From: Deltaproteobacteria bacterium | GTDB taxonomy: Bacteria > Desulfobacterota > Syntrophobacteria > Syntrophobacterales > Syntrophobacteraceae | Direction of reading: 5' to 3' | DNA: 64,000 bases | NCBI GenBank assembly: GCA_012517315.1 | Contig: JAAYVE010000059.1 | Coordinates: forward strand, 1 to 64,000 | Shown: positions 24,414 to 63,818 of the stretch, in pieces | Position numbering within the stretch: the stretch's first letter is position 1 | How the letters are laid out: the number at the start of each line of letters is the position of its first letter | Program-made: the position numbers and the translations under genes | The notes under the pieces: generated by a model | The model's database searches: none | Seen by the model: the letters and a program-made list of their open reading frames with translations, nothing else | Told to the model about the DNA's origin: nothing

Positions 24414-24489
24414 GGGCGAGTAACTCAGCGGTGAGAGTGCCATCCTCACACGGTGGAAGTCGGAGGTTCAAATCCTCTCTCGCCCACCA
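24414..24489 (+). tRNA. tRNA-Val (anticodon CAC)
   Basis: The acceptor stem GGGCGAG/CTCGCCC, the anticodon stem CCATC/GGTGG with loop CTCACAC (anticodon CAC) and a T arm with TTCAAAT are all visible, and CCA is encoded. The T-loop has TTCAAAT where TTCGAAT is commonest. Confidence 0.96.
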
Positions 24490-24503
24490 TCACATGAACA
24501 GGG

Positions 24504-24538
24504 AGAGCCGATTCAGGGGAATCGGCTCTTTGTTTTTC
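24504..24538 (+). terminator. Terminator of tRNA-Val
   Basis: An 11-base perfect stem AGAGCCGATTC/GAATCGGCTCT with loop AGGG is followed by TTGTTTTTC. Confidence 0.92.
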
Positions 24539-24773
24539 ATGCCGCCCACCCCGAACGGTTGATCTCAACGCCGAGTCTCTGCATAATGAGCCATAAGGAC
24601 AGCCGATGTGCGAGACATCCCGCAGAACCGGATGTCGCGAAAACTCCGGCAAGTACCTCCTTATGCTACTCCCCGTATCCTGTGGGGGTGCGACTTTTCT
24701 TTTGACCTCCGCTTGTCTTGGAAATACGGACAAGTCTCATCCGATTCGACGCGAACATCGGGAGGCGTGTCTC

Positions 24774-27269
24774 GTGGGACCGAAGTTGCCCCATCGCGAT
24801 TCCGAGAGTCCCCTGGTTTATGTAACCGGGATGCCGCAGACCCCCGATGCGATCAGTTGGTGTCCTGCGATCGAGGATGCATTCAAAGCCAGGCATCGCC
24901 TGGCTGAAACCCTGGAGGCGGCCGACATGGTTCTCGTCGTGATCGGCCGGGACTTTCGCCGGTCTGGTCTACGGCTCCTTTCGCCTCTCCAGGGACCTCT
25001 TGAGAAGACACTGGACCTGAACGGATATGCTTTCCGCGCGCTTATCCGCAATGCGGTCGACGGGAAGAAATGCATCGTGCCTGTGCTTGTGAATGGCGCG
25101 CACATGCCGGATGCCGCCCTTCTTCCCTCTGATCTTCAATTCCTGCGCTATCTGGAAGCCCTTTATGTTGAGTCGAAGGGCGAGATTGCCGGGTTGATCA
25201 CTCGAATACTGACCATCCCCTTGGCGTGCGCACTCGAGGCAAGAGATGACGTGAAAGAGGGCAGTGTTGAGCAGCGGATGGTCTTTTTGGCCTATCGGCG
25301 GGAAGATTCCAGTTTCTGGGCGGACAGTCTGGCCCGTGCGCTCAGTCGGCGGTTGGGTCGACAAAGGGTTTTCCTGGATGTGTCAAGCCAGCACCCGTCT
25401 GAGGATTATCGATCACAGATCTCCAAGGCTCTCGCTCGTTCCACAGATGTGGTCCTCCTCATCGGATCGGGCTTCCTGGAGTCGAGGGCCGGGGGTGAAA
25501 GACGCATTGAAAAAGCCGACGATCAGCTGAGGATCGAGATTCGAACCGCGCTGCAGGAAGGCAAACGCTTGCACGTGGTGATCGCAGGGGGGGCGAGCAT
25601 GCCATCCAGGGCTGATCTTCCTTATGACATCGCCCCGCTGGTCGAGACAACATCTGTTTTCCGGCTCACGTCGGATTCCCAGGTGGAACAAATCGTCGAT
25701 AAAATTTTTCCTCGCGTCGGCGTGGCCCCATCCGAAGGCATTGTCGACGGATTGAAGGCTGAATGGAACGTGTATGCGTCCCATGTGGAATCGATTCTGG
25801 CCGAACTTGTCGCCTACGGTTGGACGGAGGCGTGCAAGGGGTCTGAACGACGCGGTATCAGAATTCTCTCCAACGAGCGCTTCGACAATTTCCGCATCGA
25901 ACTGCGCACACAGCCCCCCGTGGCTTGTCTTGAGGAACGCACCGCGAGTCTGCTGCGGGCCGGTCTCCCCCGATGGGTCACCCGAGACGTCATTCCCGTT
26001 TCGCCCTACGAAGCCACTGCAAACAAGGCGATGCGACTGCCGGAGCGACTGTTGGAAGCTGTTCTCGATCCTGTGCAGTACTTGAATCGCAGGGGGCGTT
26101 TCAAAATAAAAAAGGAGAGCAATCCATTCTGGCGACATGACAGCCACCTTGCCAATATGCGGCTCTTCCGTGGTCCTTGTGACGCGGAGGCAATCGAGGC
26201 GTTTCAGGAGTCTCGAAGACGGCTGTCGGCCAGGGGTGGACCCAAGACGTTGAGGCGCGTGAAGTATTTGGGGTTTGACCTGAAAGGTGCCCAAGGAATC
26301 GCTTTTCATCCCAGCGGGGAATGGTTGGCCATTGCCGCCGACACAGGCGCCATGCTCGTTGAAACCAGAAACTGGCAGATCGGTGCCGTTCTCAACTCCC
26401 CCGCGTCTTGGCAAGCCGCCGGATTCTCTCGGGACGGGCATCTGGCGCTTGGATCCGATCGCGGCCGGATATCCATTTGGGATTCGAACGGCGTGCTGAT
26501 TCGGGATCGCGTCAGAGTGCACAGATCGCGCAGTCTGCTTCGTACAATCTCGGGCGAATCCGACCGGACCATCGCCCACATTTCTTGGTCCCCCAACGGG
26601 CAGTCGCTTGCATGCTGCAGCGACGATGCAGCATGCTTCTACAACCTGGTGACAGGCAATGTGTCCCACTGGGCCCTGCCGAAGCTCGACCCTCCCGAAT
26701 TCGATGGCGCCGGCGCTCACTTCACTGCGAAAGGCAACGAGGCACTGATTCATGGGCTTCGCTCGTTCTTCTGTATCCTCCAGATTCCAGAGTTGACGGT
26801 ACTGAGGGTTGTTCAGAGGAAAATCCGGCCCAAGCAGGAACTCATCGCTGACGAAACAGAGGCAATCGATAGCGGCCGACCGTTTTCGGACATTTACCAT
26901 GCGGAGCCTTCCCCAGGAGGAGATCTGATCGCCTGCGCGGGGGAGAAGGGGCGGATCGCACTGTACGATCTATCCTCGCTGGAACTGCTCGCGACCGCTG
27001 CCTGGTTTGAACCTTATTACCATGGGATGCCCAGGGATGTCGCCGTGGTCTCCTTCAGTCCCGACGGTCGTCTGCTTGCGGCAATCGCCGACCAGCAGCG
27101 GATGGTGATAGGAGACGTGAAAACGTTGGCACCCGTGTACGAATCACCTGACATCATGGATTTTGTGTGGACGGGGGCGCTCATGCCGAGAGTGGCCTGG
27201 TCACCTGATTCTTCTCTCATTGCTGTGAATGATTCCAGAGGGGTCACGAAGATTTGGGCCATTCGGTGA
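24774..27269 (+). CDS. Two TIR-like domains fused to a WD40-like propeller
   Basis: The first TIR-like unit (about 12-150) is incomplete at its front but keeps MVLVVIGRDF and IVPVLVNGAHMP; it has RALIRNAV where the catalytic Glu helix should be, so it is probably inactive. The second (about 168-310) is a full TIR_2-type domain: VFLAYRREDSSFWADSL, QRVFLDVSSQHPSEDY, STDVVLLIGSGFL and LRIEIRTAL with Glu255 in the position of the NADase glutamate. A region of about 190 residues without assignment follows, then a beta-propeller from about 500 (GIAFHPSGEWLAIAAD, VSFSPDGRLLAAIADQ, VAWSPDSSLIAVNDSRG). The start is chosen as GTG 24774 behind GGGAGG; the frame is open back to ATG 24606, but that part looks non-coding. 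It follows tRNA-Val directly. Bacterial TIR/WD40 proteins often act in phage defence; that role is inferred. Confidence 0.85.
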   Translation: MGPKLPHRDSESPLVYVTGMPQTPDAISWCPAIEDAFKARHRLAETLEAADMVLVVIGRDFRRSGLRLLSPLQGPLEKTLDLNGYAFRALIRNAVDGKKCIVPVLVNGAHMPDAALLPSDLQFLRYLEALYVESKGEIAGLITRILTIPLACALEARDDVKEGSVEQRMVFLAYRREDSSFWADSLARALSRRLGRQRVFLDVSSQHPSEDYRSQISKALARSTDVVLLIGSGFLESRAGGERRIEKADDQLRIEIRTALQEGKRLHVVIAGGASMPSRADLPYDIAPLVETTSVFRLTSDSQVEQIVDKIFPRVGVAPSEGIVDGLKAEWNVYASHVESILAELVAYGWTEACKGSERRGIRILSNERFDNFRIELRTQPPVACLEERTASLLRAGLPRWVTRDVIPVSPYEATANKAMRLPERLLEAVLDPVQYLNRRGRFKIKKESNPFWRHDSHLANMRLFRGPCDAEAIEAFQESRRRLSARGGPKTLRRVKYLGFDLKGAQGIAFHPSGEWLAIAADTGAMLVETRNWQIGAVLNSPASWQAAGFSRDGHLALGSDRGRISIWDSNGVLIRDRVRVHRSRSLLRTISGESDRTIAHISWSPNGQSLACCSDDAACFYNLVTGNVSHWALPKLDPPEFDGAGAHFTAKGNEALIHGLRSFFCILQIPELTVLRVVQRKIRPKQELIADETEAIDSGRPFSDIYHAEPSPGGDLIACAGEKGRIALYDLSSLELLATAAWFEPYYHGMPRDVAVVSFSPDGRLLAAIADQQRMVIGDVKTLAPVYESPDIMDFVWTGALMPRVAWSPDSSLIAVNDSRGVTKIWAIR

Positions 27270-28674: not shown

Positions 28675-31600
28675 TCACACAGGCCTGGAAGCCCCCGTCC
28701 TGGCAGGGCGAAACCTTTCATTCTCCTGCTGCATTTCCGTTTGGAGGAATGGCTCCGTCTGCGTTGTCTCATAGAGAGAGGCCAATCGGTGAAGGTCGGC
28801 CAGGTAGGTGCGCCAACGCGCAAGATAGAATGAAAGAGCCCTGGAAAAATTCTTGCCCACCAGGCCGTCCAGGAAGAGCTGGGAAATCTCCCGTTCCCGT
28901 TGCAGCACATATTGGGAGAGGAGGAAGACTTTGCGCTCTTCGGAGTTCATCTGCCGCAACATCCTTTTGAGGGTGTGTCTCGCTCGCGGCTGGTACATCC
29001 AGAAATACATGAGGTCCAGGGCGTTGACGATCACCGCCAGGTTGAGGCTCTCCTCCTCGCGGGAGAGGGCACAAAGAAGGCGATCCTGGGATTCCAGAAC
29101 CCTCAGGATCTCTTCCTGGGGATGAAGCAGTTCCAGTTGGGCATAGGTATCGTACACCTGTTTGATTTTGGTCTTGTAGTCCAGGTAGCGTTCGCGAAGG
29201 TTTGTTCCCCGGTCTGCGTAGCCCTCGATGAATGCGGCCACGGTGTCCGACGCCAGCTTGGAAATGATGGCGGCCCACTTCTGCAAAACTTCGTCGACCG
29301 CCGGGACCTCGACGGCGGCAAGACCAGCCCCGATGGATGCGTTGATGAGGAGAGCCAGGGGAATGGAGAGGACCGTCCGACACAGGTTTCCCATGGCAGC
29401 CGTTTTGGGTAGTCCCCTGTAGAAATTGTGACTGGCAAGGTAAAAGCCGTTGACCACCGCCATGGTGGTGTAAAGGGCGAGCGGGTTCGTATGGACGGTC
29501 ACCCCGAGCCTTTGATCCAGAATCACCGATTTGACCAGGTAGTCCAGAAGCGGAACGGAAAACCCCGTGTACATGAGGGAATCCGCCAACCGATTCCAAC
29601 TGACATATTCCGTCCAGCGCAATAACGGGGAACGACGAAAACCGCCGGCGCCGAGCACGGACTGGATAATATTTCTCAGTCCTGTGATGCCGAACCAGAT
29701 GAAAGCCCCGAAGTAGGCGAGCAACCACCAGTCCTTGGTTAGGGCGAACGTGGCGAAGGCGGGTCCGAAGCCGAAGAGGATCTTGAGGCAATTCTTGATG
29801 TGGGTGTTCACGTACCGCAAATGGGGAATCCGGCGAGCTTTGGAATTTTCCGGACAATCCAGCTGCAGGTTGTTTCCCCCCCGCCCTGATATGCCTCCAA
29901 GAGGGCGGAGGTTACTGTGTTCCGGGGGTACGGCCTCATAGTCACCCACCACCCAGTCTTCCCTGTATCTGCGCGAAAAGAGTCCAGCGAAACGGAACCA
30001 GGATGCAATGTCACGGGGTCCATAGCCTCTTCCGTCACAGTAGGTTCGCCTGCGAAAAACCTGAATCCGCACCGGTATTCTCACCGGATAATTGGAGAAT
30101 TGGTTCATTCTCCTGCGGCATCGGCCGGGCAGAGTCTCCAACACCACTAGGCCCATCCCCGGCACCTTGGACGATCCGCCCGTCGAGTCGGTGCCGATCC
30201 TGGATTTGAGCGGTGTGTGGCGGTAATATTCGTGAAGTTCATTGAGGTGGTCGAGAATGAGGGATAACTTCTCCTTTTGCCGATCCCCGCCGTCTCCCAT
30301 TGCTTGCACGATCTCTCTCACGCAGCGCTTGAGTTGCACCGGGTTGCCGGAGTTGATGGCAGCCTGCAGTTCCAGGATGCGGGGCGTGTCCGGGCAATTG
30401 CCGAATATCTCGTCCTTGAAATTGAAAATCTCCAGGCGTGTGATGCCCCCCCGGCAGTCGTAGAGGAGTTCCAGGACATCTTCAGCTTTCAAGCCGCTCA
30501 GGTTGAGGGTGATGCGATACCCGACGTGAAGTGCCTCCAGGCGCTGGAGCAGGGCGTGGGGCGTGAGCTGGAGCAGGGGAGGGGCCCCATCGTTTTCCTT
30601 TGGAATGGAAGGGTTGTGGATGTCCGGGTTCCTCGCTGGACGCAGATAGCGCTCAGAGATGGCGTCGATGTCCAAGCGGTTCATCCGCTCAACGATTGCC
30701 TGAGCATTCCGAAGCTGCTCTTCGCCCAGCTTGCAGGACTCCCGAAGGTTGGCCAGCTTCTTTTGGAAGTGCCGCAGGAGGTGGTCGTGAATCAGCTTGG
30801 ACAGATGGTGCAGGGAAGGCTGACCGGTCCCCACCAAAGCGAGCAGGTCGGATGTGGTCAGGATGGGAAGCTCGATTCCGAACTCCCTGTTGATGGTCTC
30901 GCGGTGAACCTTATTGAACGCCTCCAAGACCGAAAACGTGTACGCCTGCTGGTAGCGGGAGACCTCACGGCCTTCCGCCATGAACGCTGTGACGCCGGGT
31001 TCGTTCAGAAACTCCAAAAAGGCTTTGGCGTCATTGAACCCGCGCGGTGTCCAAATGAACCGGACATAGCGTCCGCGGAAGCGGGCACAGTATTCAATGC
31101 CCACGCGTACCCCAACTTCCATGATTTCCGCCGCTTCCAGCAGTTCCTGGACCACCTCGGGCGGTACGTAGTTGTAGTAAATCACCCTGAGGCGCCGAAT
31201 GCCCTTGATCCAAGCGTCCATTATCAGGTGTGTCGCCGACTTGCGGCCTTTGGTGTTGGCGTCGTGAACGTGGTCGTCAAAGGCGATCTGGTTCCATTCT
31301 TCAGGCATTTCCAACAGATGATACTTGAGCAGTTGGCGCGTGATGGCTCTGGGTCTGCCCGTGGCCGCCTCTCTGAAATCCCTTGCCAGCTGGAGCTTGA
31401 CTTCTTCATCCTCGGCCCGAACCAGTTCCTTCATGATCTGGAGGAGCACCCTGGCCCTGTTCTTGCGCAACTCCGCCCGTGAACTGACGAAGACCTCGTC
31501 GCGCAGGGCCCGCAGGGTGCGCAAGCGATCTTCGGCGCTGTCCCGCTCAAGGGATCGGAACAGCTTGATCACGGCGTAGGCGATGCGAAGACCGGTGGAA

Positions 31601-31767
31601 GCAGCCATTTCCTTGATCCCATGAGGGTGCAGGTAGGGGATCAGCAGTTTTTTCAGGCTCCGGGGGTCTTCGTAGCTCAGAACGTCGTTCACGATGTTCA
31701 GGAGCCGGTAGTCCTTTTGGTCGAAAAAGAGGCGCTTCAGCACGTTGTGACGTTCCATTTGCCTCAT
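28675..31767 (-). CDS. Large membrane protein with PHP-like N-terminal region
   Basis: The 1030-residue product has an N-terminal helical segment (about 1-150), then a PHP-phosphoesterase-like stretch (about 175-300) with FDDHVHDANTKGRKSATH, where DDHVHD resembles the metal-binding DxHxH signature. A middle region of about 350 residues follows, then several membrane helices (about 640-850; for example ILFGFGPAFATFALT and DWWLLAYFGAFIWFGITGL). The C-terminal part is a long charged helical tail. The start is ATG 31767 or ATG 31758. It is not a known exporter or polymerase. The family looks conserved and full length; its function is unknown. It stands alone between PilZ and the phosphate transporter. 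Confidence 0.75.
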   Translation of the reverse strand: MRQMERHNVLKRLFFDQKDYRLLNIVNDVLSYEDPRSLKKLLIPYLHPHGIKEMAASTGLRIAYAVIKLFRSLERDSAEDRLRTLRALRDEVFVSSRAELRKNRARVLLQIMKELVRAEDEEVKLQLARDFREAATGRPRAITRQLLKYHLLEMPEEWNQIAFDDHVHDANTKGRKSATHLIMDAWIKGIRRLRVIYYNYVPPEVVQELLEAAEIMEVGVRVGIEYCARFRGRYVRFIWTPRGFNDAKAFLEFLNEPGVTAFMAEGREVSRYQQAYTFSVLEAFNKVHRETINREFGIELPILTTSDLLALVGTGQPSLHHLSKLIHDHLLRHFQKKLANLRESCKLGEEQLRNAQAIVERMNRLDIDAISERYLRPARNPDIHNPSIPKENDGAPPLLQLTPHALLQRLEALHVGYRITLNLSGLKAEDVLELLYDCRGGITRLEIFNFKDEIFGNCPDTPRILELQAAINSGNPVQLKRCVREIVQAMGDGGDRQKEKLSLILDHLNELHEYYRHTPLKSRIGTDSTGGSSKVPGMGLVVLETLPGRCRRRMNQFSNYPVRIPVRIQVFRRRTYCDGRGYGPRDIASWFRFAGLFSRRYREDWVVGDYEAVPPEHSNLRPLGGISGRGGNNLQLDCPENSKARRIPHLRYVNTHIKNCLKILFGFGPAFATFALTKDWWLLAYFGAFIWFGITGLRNIIQSVLGAGGFRRSPLLRWTEYVSWNRLADSLMYTGFSVPLLDYLVKSVILDQRLGVTVHTNPLALYTTMAVVNGFYLASHNFYRGLPKTAAMGNLCRTVLSIPLALLINASIGAGLAAVEVPAVDEVLQKWAAIISKLASDTVAAFIEGYADRGTNLRERYLDYKTKIKQVYDTYAQLELLHPQEEILRVLESQDRLLCALSREEESLNLAVIVNALDLMYFWMYQPRARHTLKRMLRQMNSEERKVFLLSQYVLQREREISQLFLDGLVGKNFSRALSFYLARWRTYLADLHRLASLYETTQTEPFLQTEMQQENERFRPARTGASRPV

Positions 31768-57351: not shown

Positions 57352-58296
57352 TCACGCCTCAGCTTTCTCCTCACTCCACTTGACGAGCCATCCTTCGTTT
57401 TCCGTTGATATGGCGTGTTCACAGTCGTCCACGAACCTGGCCACGGACTCCGGGGTGTACCGGTCCGGGTTGACGAGCCACTCGTCCCGCAGGGCCGTGA
57501 GCCTGTCGGCGGTGCCGAAGTAGATCATGGCCTCGTGGTCATATCGCGATGCGGCCAGGTGTGCGGTGACCGCCGCACCCGCCGTGGTCACGACGGCCAC
57601 CCAGGGTCCGATGTGCGCGAGTTTGGCGAAGCCGGTGGCTTCAGATGCCCCTGCAGCGGCACCCAGGGCGGTGGCAAACATTCCGAGCCAGAATTCGACG
57701 TTGTGGAGCCGCCCGGCGGCGATTGCCCTCTCCAATCCTCTAGGGCGGTAATAGTTTTCCACCTGGTTGTTCACCCGGCTTTTCACGTAACCGTCGATGT
57801 CGAGGGTCAAGGGGCGCGACTTTTGAGGGGGCACCACAGAGGCGGCATGGATCCAGAGGTCCCGCACTTTTTCCTTCACATCATGGCACGCCTTAACGAG
57901 TTGGGAGGGGGAGACCTGCGGACCGTACGGCGGCGCGCCCACGAGGTACCTGTAGATGGTCTCCTTGAGCGCCTCCGAAGCGGAACGGGCCCGCACCCAC
58001 GACCTCACCTGGTCCTTGGACGCTTTGACGCGCAACACATAGGGGACGACAGCCAGGATCACGGCTCCCGCAAGGGCGACGACAGGCCGTAGCCAGGAGA
58101 ACTCTCCGTCGGAAGCCGGCAGCACCGCCGCAAAAGTCTCCAGAAATGCCCCCAGCACCCCGGCCACCGCCGCCCGGTTGCGCCACTTCATCAAATGCGC
58201 CTTGAGGCGATTGGCCGTCTCGGACCAGGTGGCCTGGTCCCGCCACGCCGATTCCACGATCTCCTTTGATCCGCTGACCGCAGCTGTGTGATTCAT
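57352..58296 (-). CDS. Four-helix membrane protein, two SLATT/DUF4231-like units
   Basis: The 314-residue protein carries two copies of a unit made of a helical segment and a pair of membrane helices: TM1 41-60 and TM2 69-88, then TM3 199-218 and TM4 229-250. Each is followed by a charged helix of the SLATT/DUF4231 type (SASEALKETIYRYLVG after the first, YFGTADRLTALRDEW after the second). SLATT proteins are known as pore-forming effectors in NTP- or nucleotide-signalled conflict systems. The start MNHTAAVSGSKEI at 58296 follows GAGGAG and overlaps the stop of the TIR-TPR gene by four bases (ATGA). It is therefore co-translated with it, and a membrane-disrupting effector role is inferred. Confidence 0.8.
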   Translation of the reverse strand: MNHTAAVSGSKEIVESAWRDQATWSETANRLKAHLMKWRNRAAVAGVLGAFLETFAAVLPASDGEFSWLRPVVALAGAVILAVVPYVLRVKASKDQVRSWVRARSASEALKETIYRYLVGAPPYGPQVSPSQLVKACHDVKEKVRDLWIHAASVVPPQKSRPLTLDIDGYVKSRVNNQVENYYRPRGLERAIAAGRLHNVEFWLGMFATALGAAAGASEATGFAKLAHIGPWVAVVTTAGAAVTAHLAASRYDHEAMIYFGTADRLTALRDEWLVNPDRYTPESVARFVDDCEHAISTENEGWLVKWSEEKAEA

Positions 58297-59624
58297 GATG
58301 CACTCCTCAGGGCGGCCCGCCACTTCAGGAAAACGGCCGGTTCGATGTTGAGCCACTTCTGGAGGCGCTCCAGCCCGTCCACGATCCGCTGCAACTCGTC
58401 GGGGGAGGGTTCGAGAGCGGCGATTTCCGACAGGTGCTGCAGCGCACGTGGTTCGTCGTCGAGGACGATGGATGCGGTTGCCCGGGTGGCACAGGTCCAG
58501 ATGTTCTGCTCGGATAGGCGGTCGATGATTTCCCGGGCCCTGCGATAAGCGCCTCTCGCTTCTTCATGCTTCCCGAGGCGCAAAAGCGTCTGGCCGAGGA
58601 CGTCCGCCAGGTAATAGGAGTGGGGGTTGTGTTCCAGGGCGGTCCGATAGGTTTCCGCAGCGCCCTCGAAGTCGTCTCGTTCGCGCTGAAGGCGGGCCTT
58701 GAGGGCGGCGCACTCCGCGTTGTGGCTGAAGGCGTCCGGGTCCAGCTGGGCGATGCGGGCGATCACCCGGGCCGCGTCATCCGGTCTTCGACCGTCGAGA
58801 TACGCGAGTCCCAGGGCCCGGAGGAGGAAGATATCCCGGGGTGCGAACTCCAAAGCCAGAGCAAACTCCTGCGCCGCCCGATCGGGCCGCTTGGCCGCCT
58901 GGTAGGCGTTGCCCAGCCGCCGGTGGAGGCGCAGGTCGAGGGGAAGGGGGCGATCGTCGCGAGTACGGCCGAAAGTCAGGTTGAGCCAGTCGTGGAGATG
59001 CTCCACTTCGGACATGCGGTTTTCGGCCCCGAGCCTGTCCAGGCGTTCGCACCACTCCTGGATCGCCGCTTCGGTGGGAAGCAGGGGAGCATCCCGCAGT
59101 GCCTCCTCCACCCTTTCCAGGTATGTGTCGATGGCAGGTTCGAGCATCTTTCCCGCCCTGACCAGCTGGCTCTTCTGCATCCGGGGGGCGAAATCCTCGA
59201 TGAGGTCGCTAAGAAAGCGCTCGATCCCGGAACGCCCGTCTCCCTCGACCCCCTGGATCCCCGCGAAGGGCGACGGCACTTGGCTTCCGGTCAACTTGAA
59301 GACCAGCGGACGTACTTTGCGGCTGTCGGTGTCTGCGGACGCAATGCCCGCGCCGTAAACCGCGCCTGCCTCCCACAGCACCCAGGGCCTCTGGGTGGAG
59401 CTGGGGGTGAGGAGGATGACGGCGACATTGGCGGAACGCACCCGCTCCACGATCCAGCGAAACCACTCCTCGCCGGGTTTGATGCCCCCGTCCAGTTCTT
59501 TCTTGGTGGAGTAGCTGGTGGTGACCAGGTCACCGAAGATCTTTTCCAGGGCCTCGCTCAGGGCGTGTGCGATCTCCGCGTCGGCGTGGGTGTGACTGAT
59601 GAAAACCTCGCCGATTCTCTCCAA
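58293..59624 (-). CDS. TIR domain / TPR-repeat protein
   Basis: The 443-residue protein has an N-terminal TIR domain (1-145): EVFISHTHADAEIAHALSE, STKKELDGGIKPGEEWFRWI, VAVILLTPSSTQRPWVLWEA. Glu85 in the WVLWEAG motif is the position of the NAD-cleaving glutamate. From about 190 to the end are tetratricopeptide repeats (for example NAYQAAKRPDRAAQEFALAL and YRTALEHNPHSYYLADVLGQ). The start is TTG at 59624 behind AGGAGGGAGAACC, lying in the 15-base gap after the STAND gene. The stop overlaps the next start (ATGA). TIR proteins in defence either destroy NAD+ or make signalling nucleotides from it; which applies here is unknown. Confidence 0.9.
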   Translation of the reverse strand: MERIGEVFISHTHADAEIAHALSEALEKIFGDLVTTSYSTKKELDGGIKPGEEWFRWIVERVRSANVAVILLTPSSTQRPWVLWEAGAVYGAGIASADTDSRKVRPLVFKLTGSQVPSPFAGIQGVEGDGRSGIERFLSDLIEDFAPRMQKSQLVRAGKMLEPAIDTYLERVEEALRDAPLLPTEAAIQEWCERLDRLGAENRMSEVEHLHDWLNLTFGRTRDDRPLPLDLRLHRRLGNAYQAAKRPDRAAQEFALALEFAPRDIFLLRALGLAYLDGRRPDDAARVIARIAQLDPDAFSHNAECAALKARLQRERDDFEGAAETYRTALEHNPHSYYLADVLGQTLLRLGKHEEARGAYRRAREIIDRLSEQNIWTCATRATASIVLDDEPRALQHLSEIAALEPSPDELQRIVDGLERLQKWLNIEPAVFLKWRAALRSAS

Positions 59625-59639
59625 GGTTCTCCCTCCTCT

Positions 59640-62600
59640 CTATGGACCTTGGGAAGGTCCAGACCTGCCGTCCATGAGCAATGGTGCGGGGACGTCCCCG
59701 GGAATGGGGCGATCCGGGCAGACTACCCGGTACCGATCATCGTCGCGCACGGCCGCGTGCCACTCCCGCCAGGTGAGGTTTCTCAGGAGAAGGCGGCAGA
59801 TGCAGGCAGTGGTGTCCATGTCCCAGATGTGGAATCTCCCCCGGGCGTCGCCCGCAGCGAGATACCGGCCATCGGGAGTCACGGCCAGAGCATGCATCTC
59901 CGTTCCCGGCTGCCTCAAAACCAAGGGATTTGAATTTTCGCTTTCCTCCAGGTCCCACAGCCGCAACGCCCCGTCCTGGCCTACGGCGGCGACTTTCTCA
60001 TCGCCCACAGGCACGAACAGGACGCTGTTTACCAGTCCCTGGGCACCCCGCAGGGCCCGGCTGCCGCCGATACTTCGGAAGCCCTCCCCAGCCTTGAAAT
60101 CCCAACAACGGACCATGCCATGATCGCCGCCTGCAGCGAACTTGGTCCCGTCCGGGCTGAAGGCAACGCTGCGAACGGGAGAGACCCTGCGGGGCACGCC
60201 GCCGGATTCCCCCCCCGCATGGCGAATGGAGCCGGCGATGCACGGGCCCGCGCCACAGCTTCCACTTGAAGGGGAAGGGCAGTCTTTTCTCTCCAGATCG
60301 AGCAGATGGATTTCTCCATAAGGTTCCGTGCCTGTTGCAGGCGACTCGACAGAGGTCCCGACCAGCAACCACCTTCCCTCCGGGTGAAAGGAGAGGGCCC
60401 TGATCCTTCCCGAAAATTGACAGAAGCCGGAAACAGAACCTGTCATGGAAGAACTCTCCGAGGGGGTTGTCAGGTCCCAGAAAACGACCCGACCCATTGC
60501 ATCTCCCGATGCAAGGTCGAATCGTGAGTCCGGGGGACCGTCTCCCGGTCGGAACCGGACAGACCAAAGACCTCCGGCATGGGGGGACTTTTCGTCTTCA
60601 TGCCCGAGTGGGCGGTCATATCCGGGGTTCTCGAGATCGAGGAGTTGAACCCTGTTGTTCCGCAAGGCAACAGCCATCAGGGAACCCTTCACATCCAGTG
60701 CCCTGATGCTGTGCATGAACCCTTCTCCACCCAGCGTTTTGAAGTAAGCGTTCCCTTTGAAGGCAAGAGGCGGACTTTCGATCTCCCAAGTGCGGATTTC
60801 CCCGCGGTTGCTGGTGGTGATCAAGCCAAAGGTGGGATGAAAGGCCACAGCGTACGAATAGGCCGTCCCGGCCCAATCCTCGGTGACGTAGTTCTTCCGC
60901 CGGCCCGCCATGTCCCACAACCGCAATCCTGCATTGCCGTCGAGCCCCACAAGGACCCCTTTGTCCGGGCTGAAAGCAGCGTCGCGCTCCGTGGTTTCGT
61001 TTGCGGGAACACAGGAAACCGCGGTCACGCCTCCGGTCATTCCCCTTAAAAACCGGACCGGAACCACAAAACCATCCACCCACGTGGCATTCTCCTTGTC
61101 CTCCTGGAAGGGATCCAGGGGTCGCCCTCTCCGAAATTCCGGGTTCCGGAGATCCAGCAGCATGACCGTTCCCTGGGAACCTCCGGTGATCAACCACTGA
61201 GCGGCAGGGTCGAAGCTCGCACTCAGCCACTCCTCACCGGTGGGGTTGTCGCTCTGCTGGCGCATTCCCCGCAAAAGGCGCTGGCGCGATATGCTCTGGT
61301 CATCGGGCAGGACCAGGTAGGGGAGAGAGGAACCGTCGAGCGGCCGCCGCATGATGAGCCCTCCCGCGACATCCGTTCCCCCACGGTGGACGGTGGTCAG
61401 CCAGGGAGTCGCGTCGTCGGAGAGGGCCAACGCCACGATTTTTCTGTATTTTCTCTGGACTTTCAGCCAGCCCTCTAGGGGCCACCCTGCTTCGAAGGCG
61501 GGAAAGCAGTGTTGGAGAACAGGGGATCCCTGGGCCAAGTCGAAAAGGCGGACACCTCCCCATTCATCCCCCACGAGCACGCGGCTGCCCTTGAACGCGA
61601 CGGAGGAAACGGCCACGGTTCCTCGGGGATCCTCACAGGACACGGATCCGGGAGGGATGATCCCCAAAAGGCGGTGATCTTCCGAGCCCACATGGCAGAC
61701 GGCCAGCGATCCGTCGGTGAGAAATGCGGCCAGGTATTCTCCCTCCTGCCCGATCACCGGCGCCCGCTCCATGAGAACCGCACCATCCGGAAGGCTCAGA
61801 CCCCCCAGGACTCGACAGTCGGCGTCGACGATGCGGATCGCTTTTCCAAGGGGGTCCAGCACGGCGGAATGTTCGCCGCCGGGAAAAGGGACCTGGATCG
61901 AATTCTCGCAGGCTTCGTTCATTTGGAACCGATTCCCCGCCAGGTCGATGTGTGTAATCCGCCACCCCTTTTCGTGTTTCACCGGCACATGGACAACCGA
62001 TGCGCATTGCGACAGGAAGGCGGGCCTTCCCTGGAGCAGTTCCAGAGGGAGTGTCCTGGAGAACGGGTATGCTTCCAGGGTCGTCCATATGGCCCGATCC
62101 ACCTCGATGCTCGATAACGGGGGAACCAGCAGCCCGGACACTAGGGGCATCCGGCGGATCCACTGATTTGCCGCCTTTTCGCGGTATTTCCCGGCGAGAA
62201 CGGCAAGGAGCAATGCCGTGTCGTGATTTTGGTTGGTGTAGCGCTGCTGCATGGCGAGCCCCTGGAGTCTTCTTGCGGTGTTCTCCGTCTGTTGGCCCTG
62301 CCACAACTGGTAAAGGGCCAGGCTGAGGAGGGCGAAGATGACCAGGAGCCCCAGGGGGATCCGGACGGCCCGCTTCCAGGTTTGATTTCTGCAAAAGGCG
62401 AGGTACTTTCTCTCCCATTCGGAACGGGGTCCAACCTTCGATCGCCCCAACAAACCCGTGTCGTGATCGCGCCAGATCCTCCAGGGGAGTGCCGGGAAGT
62501 CCGCGGGTTCACCCAGCTGCCCCCATCGTCTCGCCTGCCTCTCGAATGGGGCCAGGTTCCTTTCGTACCATTCCTGGTTGCTCCTTAGGACCAGAAAGAC

Positions 62601-63818
62601 CAGGCGGTCATGGGCCAGTTCATACCATTTGGAGTTTCCCCTCAGGCTGGCGCGGAGGATATGCTCTGCCTCGAGATATCTCTGGAGAAGAGTGAGTTCG
62701 GAATCGGGATCAGGATCCGCGAGAGTTACCCGGCGGGTCCGCCCGTCCTGAATCAGTTCCTCTTCAACCCAATCCCGGATTTCCCGTTCGCCCAGCGCTA
62801 CGGTCTTGGGAGCCTCCTGGATCCGCAAATCGTAGTATTGCATCAGGGCGGCGTCTACAGGCGACAGGCCGGCTACCCCCCCGACCTCGCCAAAGGCTTC
62901 CCTGGACACGGTTTCCAGCTTGAGGCGCTGCACGCGATCCCAGAGCTGGGTACACACGAGCTGCAAGTGCAAGGGGTCGATCAGGGGGACGTCGCTGAGA
63001 TCTTCGAACTCCAACGCCCCGTCTTCTTCGACGTCGACATTGGATTGCCCCCTCTCCCCGGTGCGGCCCAAGTCTGCCAGGATCGCCTTTACCACTTGGG
63101 GTTCATAAGGGATGTTCAGGCGTTCCAGTGGTCCGATGACGGCCTTTTCTCCGTCGTTTCTGCTCAAGAAGTCCAGATGGTACCTTGCGGCAAAGTGGTT
63201 GGGCAAAAAACGGCTGTAGGCATCCAGGGCACCCACATACTCCTCCCGGATGGCGAAGAGGGCCCAGATTTGCTTGTCCTGCAGAGCTGTACCCAGCTCG
63301 CTGAAGAAACTGAGCCGCCCCCTTCGGTCATGAGGGGAAAGGGTGAACAGCTCCTCGAACTGGTCGAAGAGAAGAAGAAGCCTCTCTTCACCACGCCGCA
63401 GGGCCGAGCGATGTGCAAAATAGGTGTTGAGAGGGATGGCTTCGAGGCCGTCCATCGGGCCCGCATCCGCAGATTCACCCTCCCCCTTCCGCAACGCCGT
63501 CTCCAGGGAATGGATGACACTGTAGACGTAGCGATTGGATTCCGGTCGGTGAGTGGTGTGCGCCGGAAGAGGGTGCCCCACGTGAACGGGAGGCAGAACC
63601 CTGAATTCGTCCTTCCGCATTCTGGGGATGAGACCCGCCCTGATGAGGGACGTCTTCCCGGCGCCGGAAGGGGAGTGGAGCAGCACGATACGCTCGGTGC
63701 GGAGCATGCCCCGCAGGGTTTCCACGTCCTTTTCCCGCCCGAAGAAGTTGTCCGAGTCTTCCTCCAGGAACGGAGCGGGGCCTATGTAGGGCCGCATGCT
63801 GGAGAAGTCCGTGCTCAT
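59640..63818 (-). CDS. STAND-type NTPase with membrane helix and WD40 propeller
   Basis: This 1392-residue protein has an N-terminal nucleotide-binding domain: YIGPAPFLEEDSDNFFGREK, Walker A HSPSGAGKTS (48-57) and Walker B-like RLLLLFDQFEELF (147-159), the pattern of the nSTAND1 group. A helical region with WYERN and a single membrane helix follow (about 483-505, LGLLVIFALLSLALYQLW). The C-terminal half is a WD40-type propeller (SVAFSPDGTKFAAGGDHGMV, RCWDFKAGEG, ALAVTPDGRYLAAGDARG, RFHIWDMD). STAND proteins are inactive until a ligand is sensed, then oligomerise and trigger partners. The propeller is the likely sensor. Its start overlaps the end of the upstream gene (ATGA at 63815-63818); the TIR gene follows after 15 bp. 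Confidence 0.9.
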   Translation of the reverse strand: MSTDFSSMRPYIGPAPFLEEDSDNFFGREKDVETLRGMLRTERIVLLHSPSGAGKTSLIRAGLIPRMRKDEFRVLPPVHVGHPLPAHTTHRPESNRYVYSVIHSLETALRKGEGESADAGPMDGLEAIPLNTYFAHRSALRRGEERLLLLFDQFEELFTLSPHDRRGRLSFFSELGTALQDKQIWALFAIREEYVGALDAYSRFLPNHFAARYHLDFLSRNDGEKAVIGPLERLNIPYEPQVVKAILADLGRTGERGQSNVDVEEDGALEFEDLSDVPLIDPLHLQLVCTQLWDRVQRLKLETVSREAFGEVGGVAGLSPVDAALMQYYDLRIQEAPKTVALGEREIRDWVEEELIQDGRTRRVTLADPDPDSELTLLQRYLEAEHILRASLRGNSKWYELAHDRLVFLVLRSNQEWYERNLAPFERQARRWGQLGEPADFPALPWRIWRDHDTGLLGRSKVGPRSEWERKYLAFCRNQTWKRAVRIPLGLLVIFALLSLALYQLWQGQQTENTARRLQGLAMQQRYTNQNHDTALLLAVLAGKYREKAANQWIRRMPLVSGLLVPPLSSIEVDRAIWTTLEAYPFSRTLPLELLQGRPAFLSQCASVVHVPVKHEKGWRITHIDLAGNRFQMNEACENSIQVPFPGGEHSAVLDPLGKAIRIVDADCRVLGGLSLPDGAVLMERAPVIGQEGEYLAAFLTDGSLAVCHVGSEDHRLLGIIPPGSVSCEDPRGTVAVSSVAFKGSRVLVGDEWGGVRLFDLAQGSPVLQHCFPAFEAGWPLEGWLKVQRKYRKIVALALSDDATPWLTTVHRGGTDVAGGLIMRRPLDGSSLPYLVLPDDQSISRQRLLRGMRQQSDNPTGEEWLSASFDPAAQWLITGGSQGTVMLLDLRNPEFRRGRPLDPFQEDKENATWVDGFVVPVRFLRGMTGGVTAVSCVPANETTERDAAFSPDKGVLVGLDGNAGLRLWDMAGRRKNYVTEDWAGTAYSYAVAFHPTFGLITTSNRGEIRTWEIESPPLAFKGNAYFKTLGGEGFMHSIRALDVKGSLMAVALRNNRVQLLDLENPGYDRPLGHEDEKSPHAGGLWSVRFRPGDGPPDSRFDLASGDAMGRVVFWDLTTPSESSSMTGSVSGFCQFSGRIRALSFHPEGRWLLVGTSVESPATGTEPYGEIHLLDLERKDCPSPSSGSCGAGPCIAGSIRHAGGESGGVPRRVSPVRSVAFSPDGTKFAAGGDHGMVRCWDFKAGEGFRSIGGSRALRGAQGLVNSVLFVPVGDEKVAAVGQDGALRLWDLEESENSNPLVLRQPGTEMHALAVTPDGRYLAAGDARGRFHIWDMDTTACICRLLLRNLTWREWHAAVRDDDRYRVVCPDRPIPGDVPAPLLMDGRSGPSQGP

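Follow-up and report, generated by a model that had tools for sequence, protein, structure and literature searches.

The window, that is, the whole stretch of 64,000 nucleotides analysed, contains downstream of a tRNA-Val gene a complete gene whose product has four parts: two TIR units (TIR1 and TIR2), a middle domain and a WD40 propeller (Table 1). Its reading frame is open from an ATG at 24606 to 27269, which would give a protein of 887 residues. The GTG at 24774 is the likelier start on account of the Shine-Dalgarno sequence preceding it, of codon-position GC content, which is flat (0.54/0.55/0.55) over 24606–24773 and coding-like (0.68/0.43/0.64) from 24774 on, and of the start of homology to a protein from Candidatus Aminicenantes, at about residue 14 of the 831-residue chain. 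The upstream ATG was ruled out by codon-position GC. An antisense frame (25413–26900, minus strand) was also dismissed, since the way the sequences diverge and the GC content by codon position both point to the plus strand. The sigma-70-like promoter candidate is weak, three such matches occurring in the region against 1.3 expected.

Table 1. Features of the locus (positions in the window, all on the plus strand)
Feature	Position	Strand	Remarks
tRNA-Val (CAC)	24414..24489	+	flanking landmark, outside the gene
Terminator-like hairpin, 13 pairs, T tail	24502..24531	+	pattern match only; between tRNA and gene
Weak sigma-70-like promoter candidate, TTGATC-17-CATAAT	24559..24587	+	pattern match
Shine-Dalgarno sequence GGGAGG	24760..24765	+	8 nt before the GTG start; read from the sequence
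Complete gene, TIR1 - TIR2 - middle domain - WD40 propeller	24774..27269	+	831 aa, GTG start
TIR1, residues 15-147, reduced TIR	24816..25214	+	TIR profile, AlphaFold2; same in the Aminicenantes homologue
Leu90 codon, catalytic-Glu column of TIR1 (FRALIRNAV)	25041..25043	+	profile alignment
TIR2, residues 168-311, SARM1-like TIR	25275..25706	+	TIR profile, SARM1 match, pLDDT mostly >88
Glu255 codon, putative catalytic Glu	25536..25538	+	aligned with SARM1 Glu642
Middle domain, residues about 316-488, mixed alpha/beta, orphan	25719..26237	+	conserved in the Aminicenantes and Chloroflexi homologues
Seven-bladed WD40 propeller, residues 494-829	26253..27260	+	Pfam, AlphaFold2, structural match

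On the 887-residue reading, Pfam found TIR_2 (PF13676) in two stretches (1.6e-11), with 45.2 bits against a curated cut-off of 28, which places the protein in that family, and WD40 matches over residues 561–887. An AlphaFold2 model, run with 46 sequences, reached a mean pLDDT of 80 and a pTM of 0.55, a value too low for the arrangement of the domains relative to one another to be trusted. In this model TIR1 spans residues 15–147, TIR2 170–311 and the middle domain 323–486, and the C-terminal part forms seven four-stranded blades in a ring closed by strand 494–500, as expected of a WD40 propeller, and its best structural match was the prokaryotic PkwA WD40 domain (5yzv; Z 34.2, 2.2 Å over 282 residues). 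What the preliminary description had proposed, a single chain with two TIR units and a WD40 propeller near tRNA-Val, is confirmed.

Homologues were sought in 84,980 species genomes using a TIR-based alignment as query. The matches listed include one homologue of full length, from a Candidatus Aminicenantes MAG (locus L058; 53% identical over residues 14–830), and one that is incomplete and lies at the edge of its contig, from a Chloroflexi MAG (L059; 32% identical over residues 163–816); there may be further members. All four parts stand in the same order in the Aminicenantes protein; the Chloroflexi protein begins inside the end of TIR1 and keeps the same order from there on. At the level of sequence, the anatomy is thus conserved across three phyla. 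A scan of genome contigs with the whole protein as a single sequence found no homologues, and neither did scans of phages and viral contigs. Identities between this gene and the Aminicenantes gene at the three codon positions were 0.65/0.74/0.45, indicating purifying selection on the plus-strand protein; together with the existence of a 53% identical full-length homologue in another phylum, they exclude chance.

TIR1 was aligned to a TIR profile built from relatives over residues 40–129, covering profile positions 44–125 only, with 36.8 bits, a score that is somewhat generous because the profile was seeded with TIR2 of this same protein and may include TIR1 of the Aminicenantes homologue; the second TIR_2 stretch in Pfam is independent support. 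Besides the catalytic Glu, the first third of the TIR profile with its SYRR box is missing from TIR1, and AlphaFold2 renders this unit as a reduced, four-stranded TIR. As had been noted before, the Glu is absent from TIR1 (Leu90, FRALIRNAV) and present in TIR2 (Glu255, LRIEIRTAL), and the profile alignment bears this out. TIR1 of the Aminicenantes protein is identically truncated and carries Leu in place of Glu, so that both traits, common to the two full-length proteins, have been kept and are not a fresh lesion. A search upstream for the missing N-terminus of TIR1 in another frame revealed none. TIR1 retains IVPVLVxGAxMP, a strand characteristic of this subfamily that is altered in TIR2, and is therefore no recent TIR2 copy. 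From its sequence, TIR1 looks non-catalytic.

By contrast to the 36.8 bits of TIR1, TIR2 matched the same profile with 126 bits (residues 170–294, positions 1–125). A profile of TIR2 and its relatives matched SARM1, the closest solved relative, at 2e-16, and by this comparison TIR2 is related to the SARM1 TIR. The catalytic Glu that SARM1-like TIR NADases carry on helix alpha-C is present as Glu255, which aligns on SARM1 Glu642 (with DWVHKEIVTAL opposite); YRR 174–176 falls on the YRR of SARM1, and the position of SARM1 Asp594 is also kept (SARM1 residues numbered from general knowledge and PMC8266388). All 46 aligned sequences have Glu255, Asp202, Asp250, Tyr174, Arg175 and Arg176 without variation. 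Of these residues, YRR belonged to the pattern with which the sequences were searched for; Glu255, Asp202 and Asp250 did not.

Three changes were observed around the TIR2 pocket. Four positions before the Glu, where a WxxxE motif has an aromatic residue, TIR2 has Gln251. This position, equivalent to SARM1 Trp638, is Gln also in the Aminicenantes protein, Tyr in the Chloroflexi one and Phe, Tyr or Trp in 38 of 43 relatives; mutation of Trp638 in SARM1 (W638A) lowers efficiency at least 100-fold (PMC8266388). The two other changes, W234F and P268V/I (here W234F and P268V), depart from residues that all 43 relatives share. The earlier assignment of a structural role to one TIR unit and a catalytic one to the other thus stands as to type, TIR1 looking non-catalytic and TIR2 catalytic by its profile, invariant Glu and SARM1 match, and is weakened as to catalysis by the three changes. 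On balance, TIR2 is probably catalytically competent.

The region between TIR2 and the propeller, previously left without assignment, proved to be a genuine domain, being conserved in both homologues. A profile of this domain had no match in Pfam, the PDB or viral contigs, and no part of the chain matched an NTPase at E values up to 10. In genomes sampled from the three phyla, the profile was found in one of 395 from the phylum of this gene, one of 400 from that of the Chloroflexi MAG and one of 396 from that of the Aminicenantes MAG, i.e. only the known copies were retrieved, with none in the other ca. 1,190 genomes. AlphaFold2 gave the domain an alpha/beta fold within the full chain and a poor model when it was folded alone (pLDDT 54). 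Structural rows pointing to a HicA/dsRBD-like fold were weak (best Z 5.3 over 59 residues, on the model of pLDDT 54), and hhalign gave this pairing a probability of 5.5% and a score of 19.8, against 19.7 for the best of 60 shuffles. The fold search found no known fold for the domain, which does not make its fold new; the search with the whole model was filled by WD40 chains and is no test of the TIR or middle parts.

The protein is rare and has spread horizontally, and several lines of evidence indicate that the gene was acquired. It was found in one of 55 genomes of its class, its own; its GC3 is 0.64, compared with a mean of 0.72 (s.d. 0.06) for the ORFs of the window; and its Aminicenantes counterpart is a gene-length island of 60% GC in a contig of about 40–45% GC. 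It is just possible that this MAG contig is a chimera, though both flanks are host-like. DNA similarity between the two loci stops at the stop codon, implying that the chain travels without partner genes, and it was probably acquired as a single gene. At L058:8404–8490, overlapping the stop codon of the homologue in a TGATG, a second TIR frame (MMAGVFINCRREDSAG) starts and breaks off where host-like sequence resumes. The donor of the Aminicenantes gene thus probably had tandem TIR genes, and a partner in that donor is possible.

Placement next to a tRNA had been described as common for acquired genes, an argument that proved weak here. Several relatives that lack the TIR-WD40 gene also have tRNA-Val(CAC) directly behind a TPR gene, and what comes after the tRNA differs between genomes; this pair being ancestral, adjacency to the tRNA is weak evidence of acquisition. 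No duplicate of the tRNA 3' end (att) was found in the window or in the genome, where it is single-copy, and no integrase among the neighbours scanned for families; a tRNA-integrated mobile element was accordingly rejected. The tRNA-Val is a neighbour of the gene and not an established integration site. In one relative (L027:6740–6815) the tRNA-Val and the TPR gene are ca. 5.8 kb apart and separated by additional genes, so that there is variation to either side of the tRNA.

Neighbours with family matches encode TPR, PilZ, PHO4, PhoU_div and PIG-L proteins, and no defence gene adjoins the gene, here or on the Aminicenantes contig. Next to the phosphate transporter genes, an ORF on the minus strand (28675–31767) encodes a protein of 1030 residues that matched nothing in Pfam at E 0.01; its codon composition is coding-like (0.60/0.39/0.73). 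Elsewhere in the window, a defence-like run of genes on one strand (57352–63818, minus, continuing to position 66379 of contig C28; L056:7816–10380) encodes a TIR protein with a weak CHAT match and SIR2_2 (854 aa), an nSTAND1-WD40 protein (1392 aa), a TIR-TPR protein (443 aa) and a DUF4231/SLATT_1 protein (334 aa), with gene ends overlapping or closely spaced; it carries the other two TIR_2 domains of the genome.

The remaining loci encode TIR proteins with other partners. In 52 that were scanned, the partners were FGE-sulfatase (4), Sel1 (3), PASTA (3), TPR, CHASE2, kinase and one nSTAND1; the 25 families listed include no WD40 family. In two unrelated MAGs (L068:5752–9271 and L072:5761–9341) three successive TIR domains were seen over overlapping ORFs; in L072 two of them share one frame of 861 residues and the third is in the next.

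For a gene that is monocistronic and shows no homology past its stop codon, sensor and effector united in one chain remain the simplest reading; its product matched no NTPase. To the corresponding proposal, a self-contained, single-gene TIR sensor-effector lacking an NTPase, with TIR2 as an NADase under the propeller and a plausibly anti-phage role, we give an even chance; its elements, namely NADase activity, a propeller acting as sensor or inhibitor, TIR assembly and phage defence, are those that we infer. The C-terminal seven-bladed propeller would be the ligand-binding or autoinhibitory part, and the middle domain would couple it to the two TIR units. TIR1 would be a non-catalytic pseudo-TIR, most likely shaping TIR-TIR packing as an assembly partner or brake, and TIR2 a SARM1-like NAD+ hydrolase with Glu255 as the catalytic residue. 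Once the propeller met its trigger, TIR2 units would assemble and cut NAD+, and the cell would be stalled or killed. Bacterial TIR NADases are known to defend by NAD+ depletion (PMC9402430, PMC12847820), and the patchy spread across phyla suggests abortive anti-phage defence; fusion of subfamily relatives to FGE-sulfatase, PASTA, CHASE2, TPR or kinase domains is no exclusive pointer to phage defence. A bolder version, advanced tentatively and somewhat doubtful in our view, would see here an undescribed class of immune receptor in which a SARM1-like TIR NADase is switched on by a WD40 propeller plus orphan adaptor in the place of a STAND NTPase, the pseudo-TIR being an obligate assembly or brake partner and the whole moving between phyla as one gene.

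TIR2 might instead generate a signal, making from NAD+ a messenger of the cyclic ADP-ribose type by which, as with ThsB in Thoeris, a separate effector is activated. The best PADLOC match was indeed a ThsB model (6.2e-8 over 88 residues), the product of a TIR cannot be predicted from TIR phylogeny (PMC13142454), and a second TIR gene started right behind the Aminicenantes homologue, coupled to it through TGATG. However, none of the neighbours scanned is a partner of receptor type (SIR2-SLOG, Macro), SARM1 is the closest solved relative and between-genome homology is confined to one gene; we consider signal generation unlikely. A low probability is also assigned to a non-enzymatic scaffold or regulator, in which both TIR units would mediate protein contacts only and whose role need not be defence. 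Such a scaffold would accommodate the loss of Glu from TIR1, the alteration of TIR2 at the Trp638 equivalent and at two residues invariant in relatives, the signalling-type architectures of relatives and the lack of adjoining defence genes; it would not need Glu255, Asp202, Asp250 and YRR, which are retained in all three full family members, nor does it fit TIR2 being the part best conserved with respect to the Chloroflexi protein (43% versus 28–30% elsewhere).

That the gene is decaying after acquisition, with no present function in this genome, seems quite improbable. Its restriction to a single species of its class, atypical codon usage and truncated TIR1 could be read in this way, but the ORF is intact with proper start signals, the truncation of TIR1 is common to the Aminicenantes protein, and divergence is strongly biased by codon position, a bias that reflects history and not the present state.

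If the self-contained sensor-effector is correct, a propeller can gate TIR effectors with no need of the NTPase switch of NLR/STAND receptors, and a protein may, with no partner involved, sense a threat and then kill its own cell or stall it. Catalytic and pseudo-TIR units would be fused at a fixed 1:1 ratio, making the role of non-catalytic TIRs in assemblies testable in one small protein. The domain combination looks new and its parts are known; no TIR-WD40 anti-phage protein was found under that name in the literature looked at, a weak negative.

Compared with known systems, the protein belongs to the TIR and WD40 superfamilies and, by the tests run, is not Thoeris, STAND or Swarozyc. With Thoeris ThsB and ThcB4 it shares a TIR domain and weak profile matches (for ThcB4, 35 bits against a cut-off of 220), but these are confined to the TIR core and no ThsA-type gene is adjacent. 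Swarozyc (PMC13174449) likewise consists of one gene, for a TIR-like NADase that has an auxiliary domain for sensing. Some of the eukaryotic DUF4062 proteins have WD40 repeats, and these members carry a NACHT ATPase (PMC13174449); no DUF4062 match was found here at E up to 10. SpbK and TIR-STING are single-chain TIR defence NADases with the effector under a linked domain, but have other sensor domains and no detectable similarity outside the TIR. STAND/NLR proteins with WD40 (Apaf-1, TIR-NB-ARC, nSTAND1-WD40) resemble it in having an N-terminal effector and a C-terminal propeller as sensor; the P-loop NTPase is missing here and an unrelated domain stands in its place. SARM1, the neuron-death enzyme, and TIR-1 share with it the TIR2 match, the catalytic Glu, the YRR box and the Asp594 position, as well as the placement of a TIR effector and its regulator in one chain. 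They differ in the regulator, which is a WD40 propeller plus an orphan domain here and ARM and SAM repeats in SARM1; Gln251 moreover replaces Trp638, and a non-catalytic TIR precedes TIR2. By analogy, the protein would work most like an autoinhibited NADase of the SARM1 type, or an NLR minus its NTPase.
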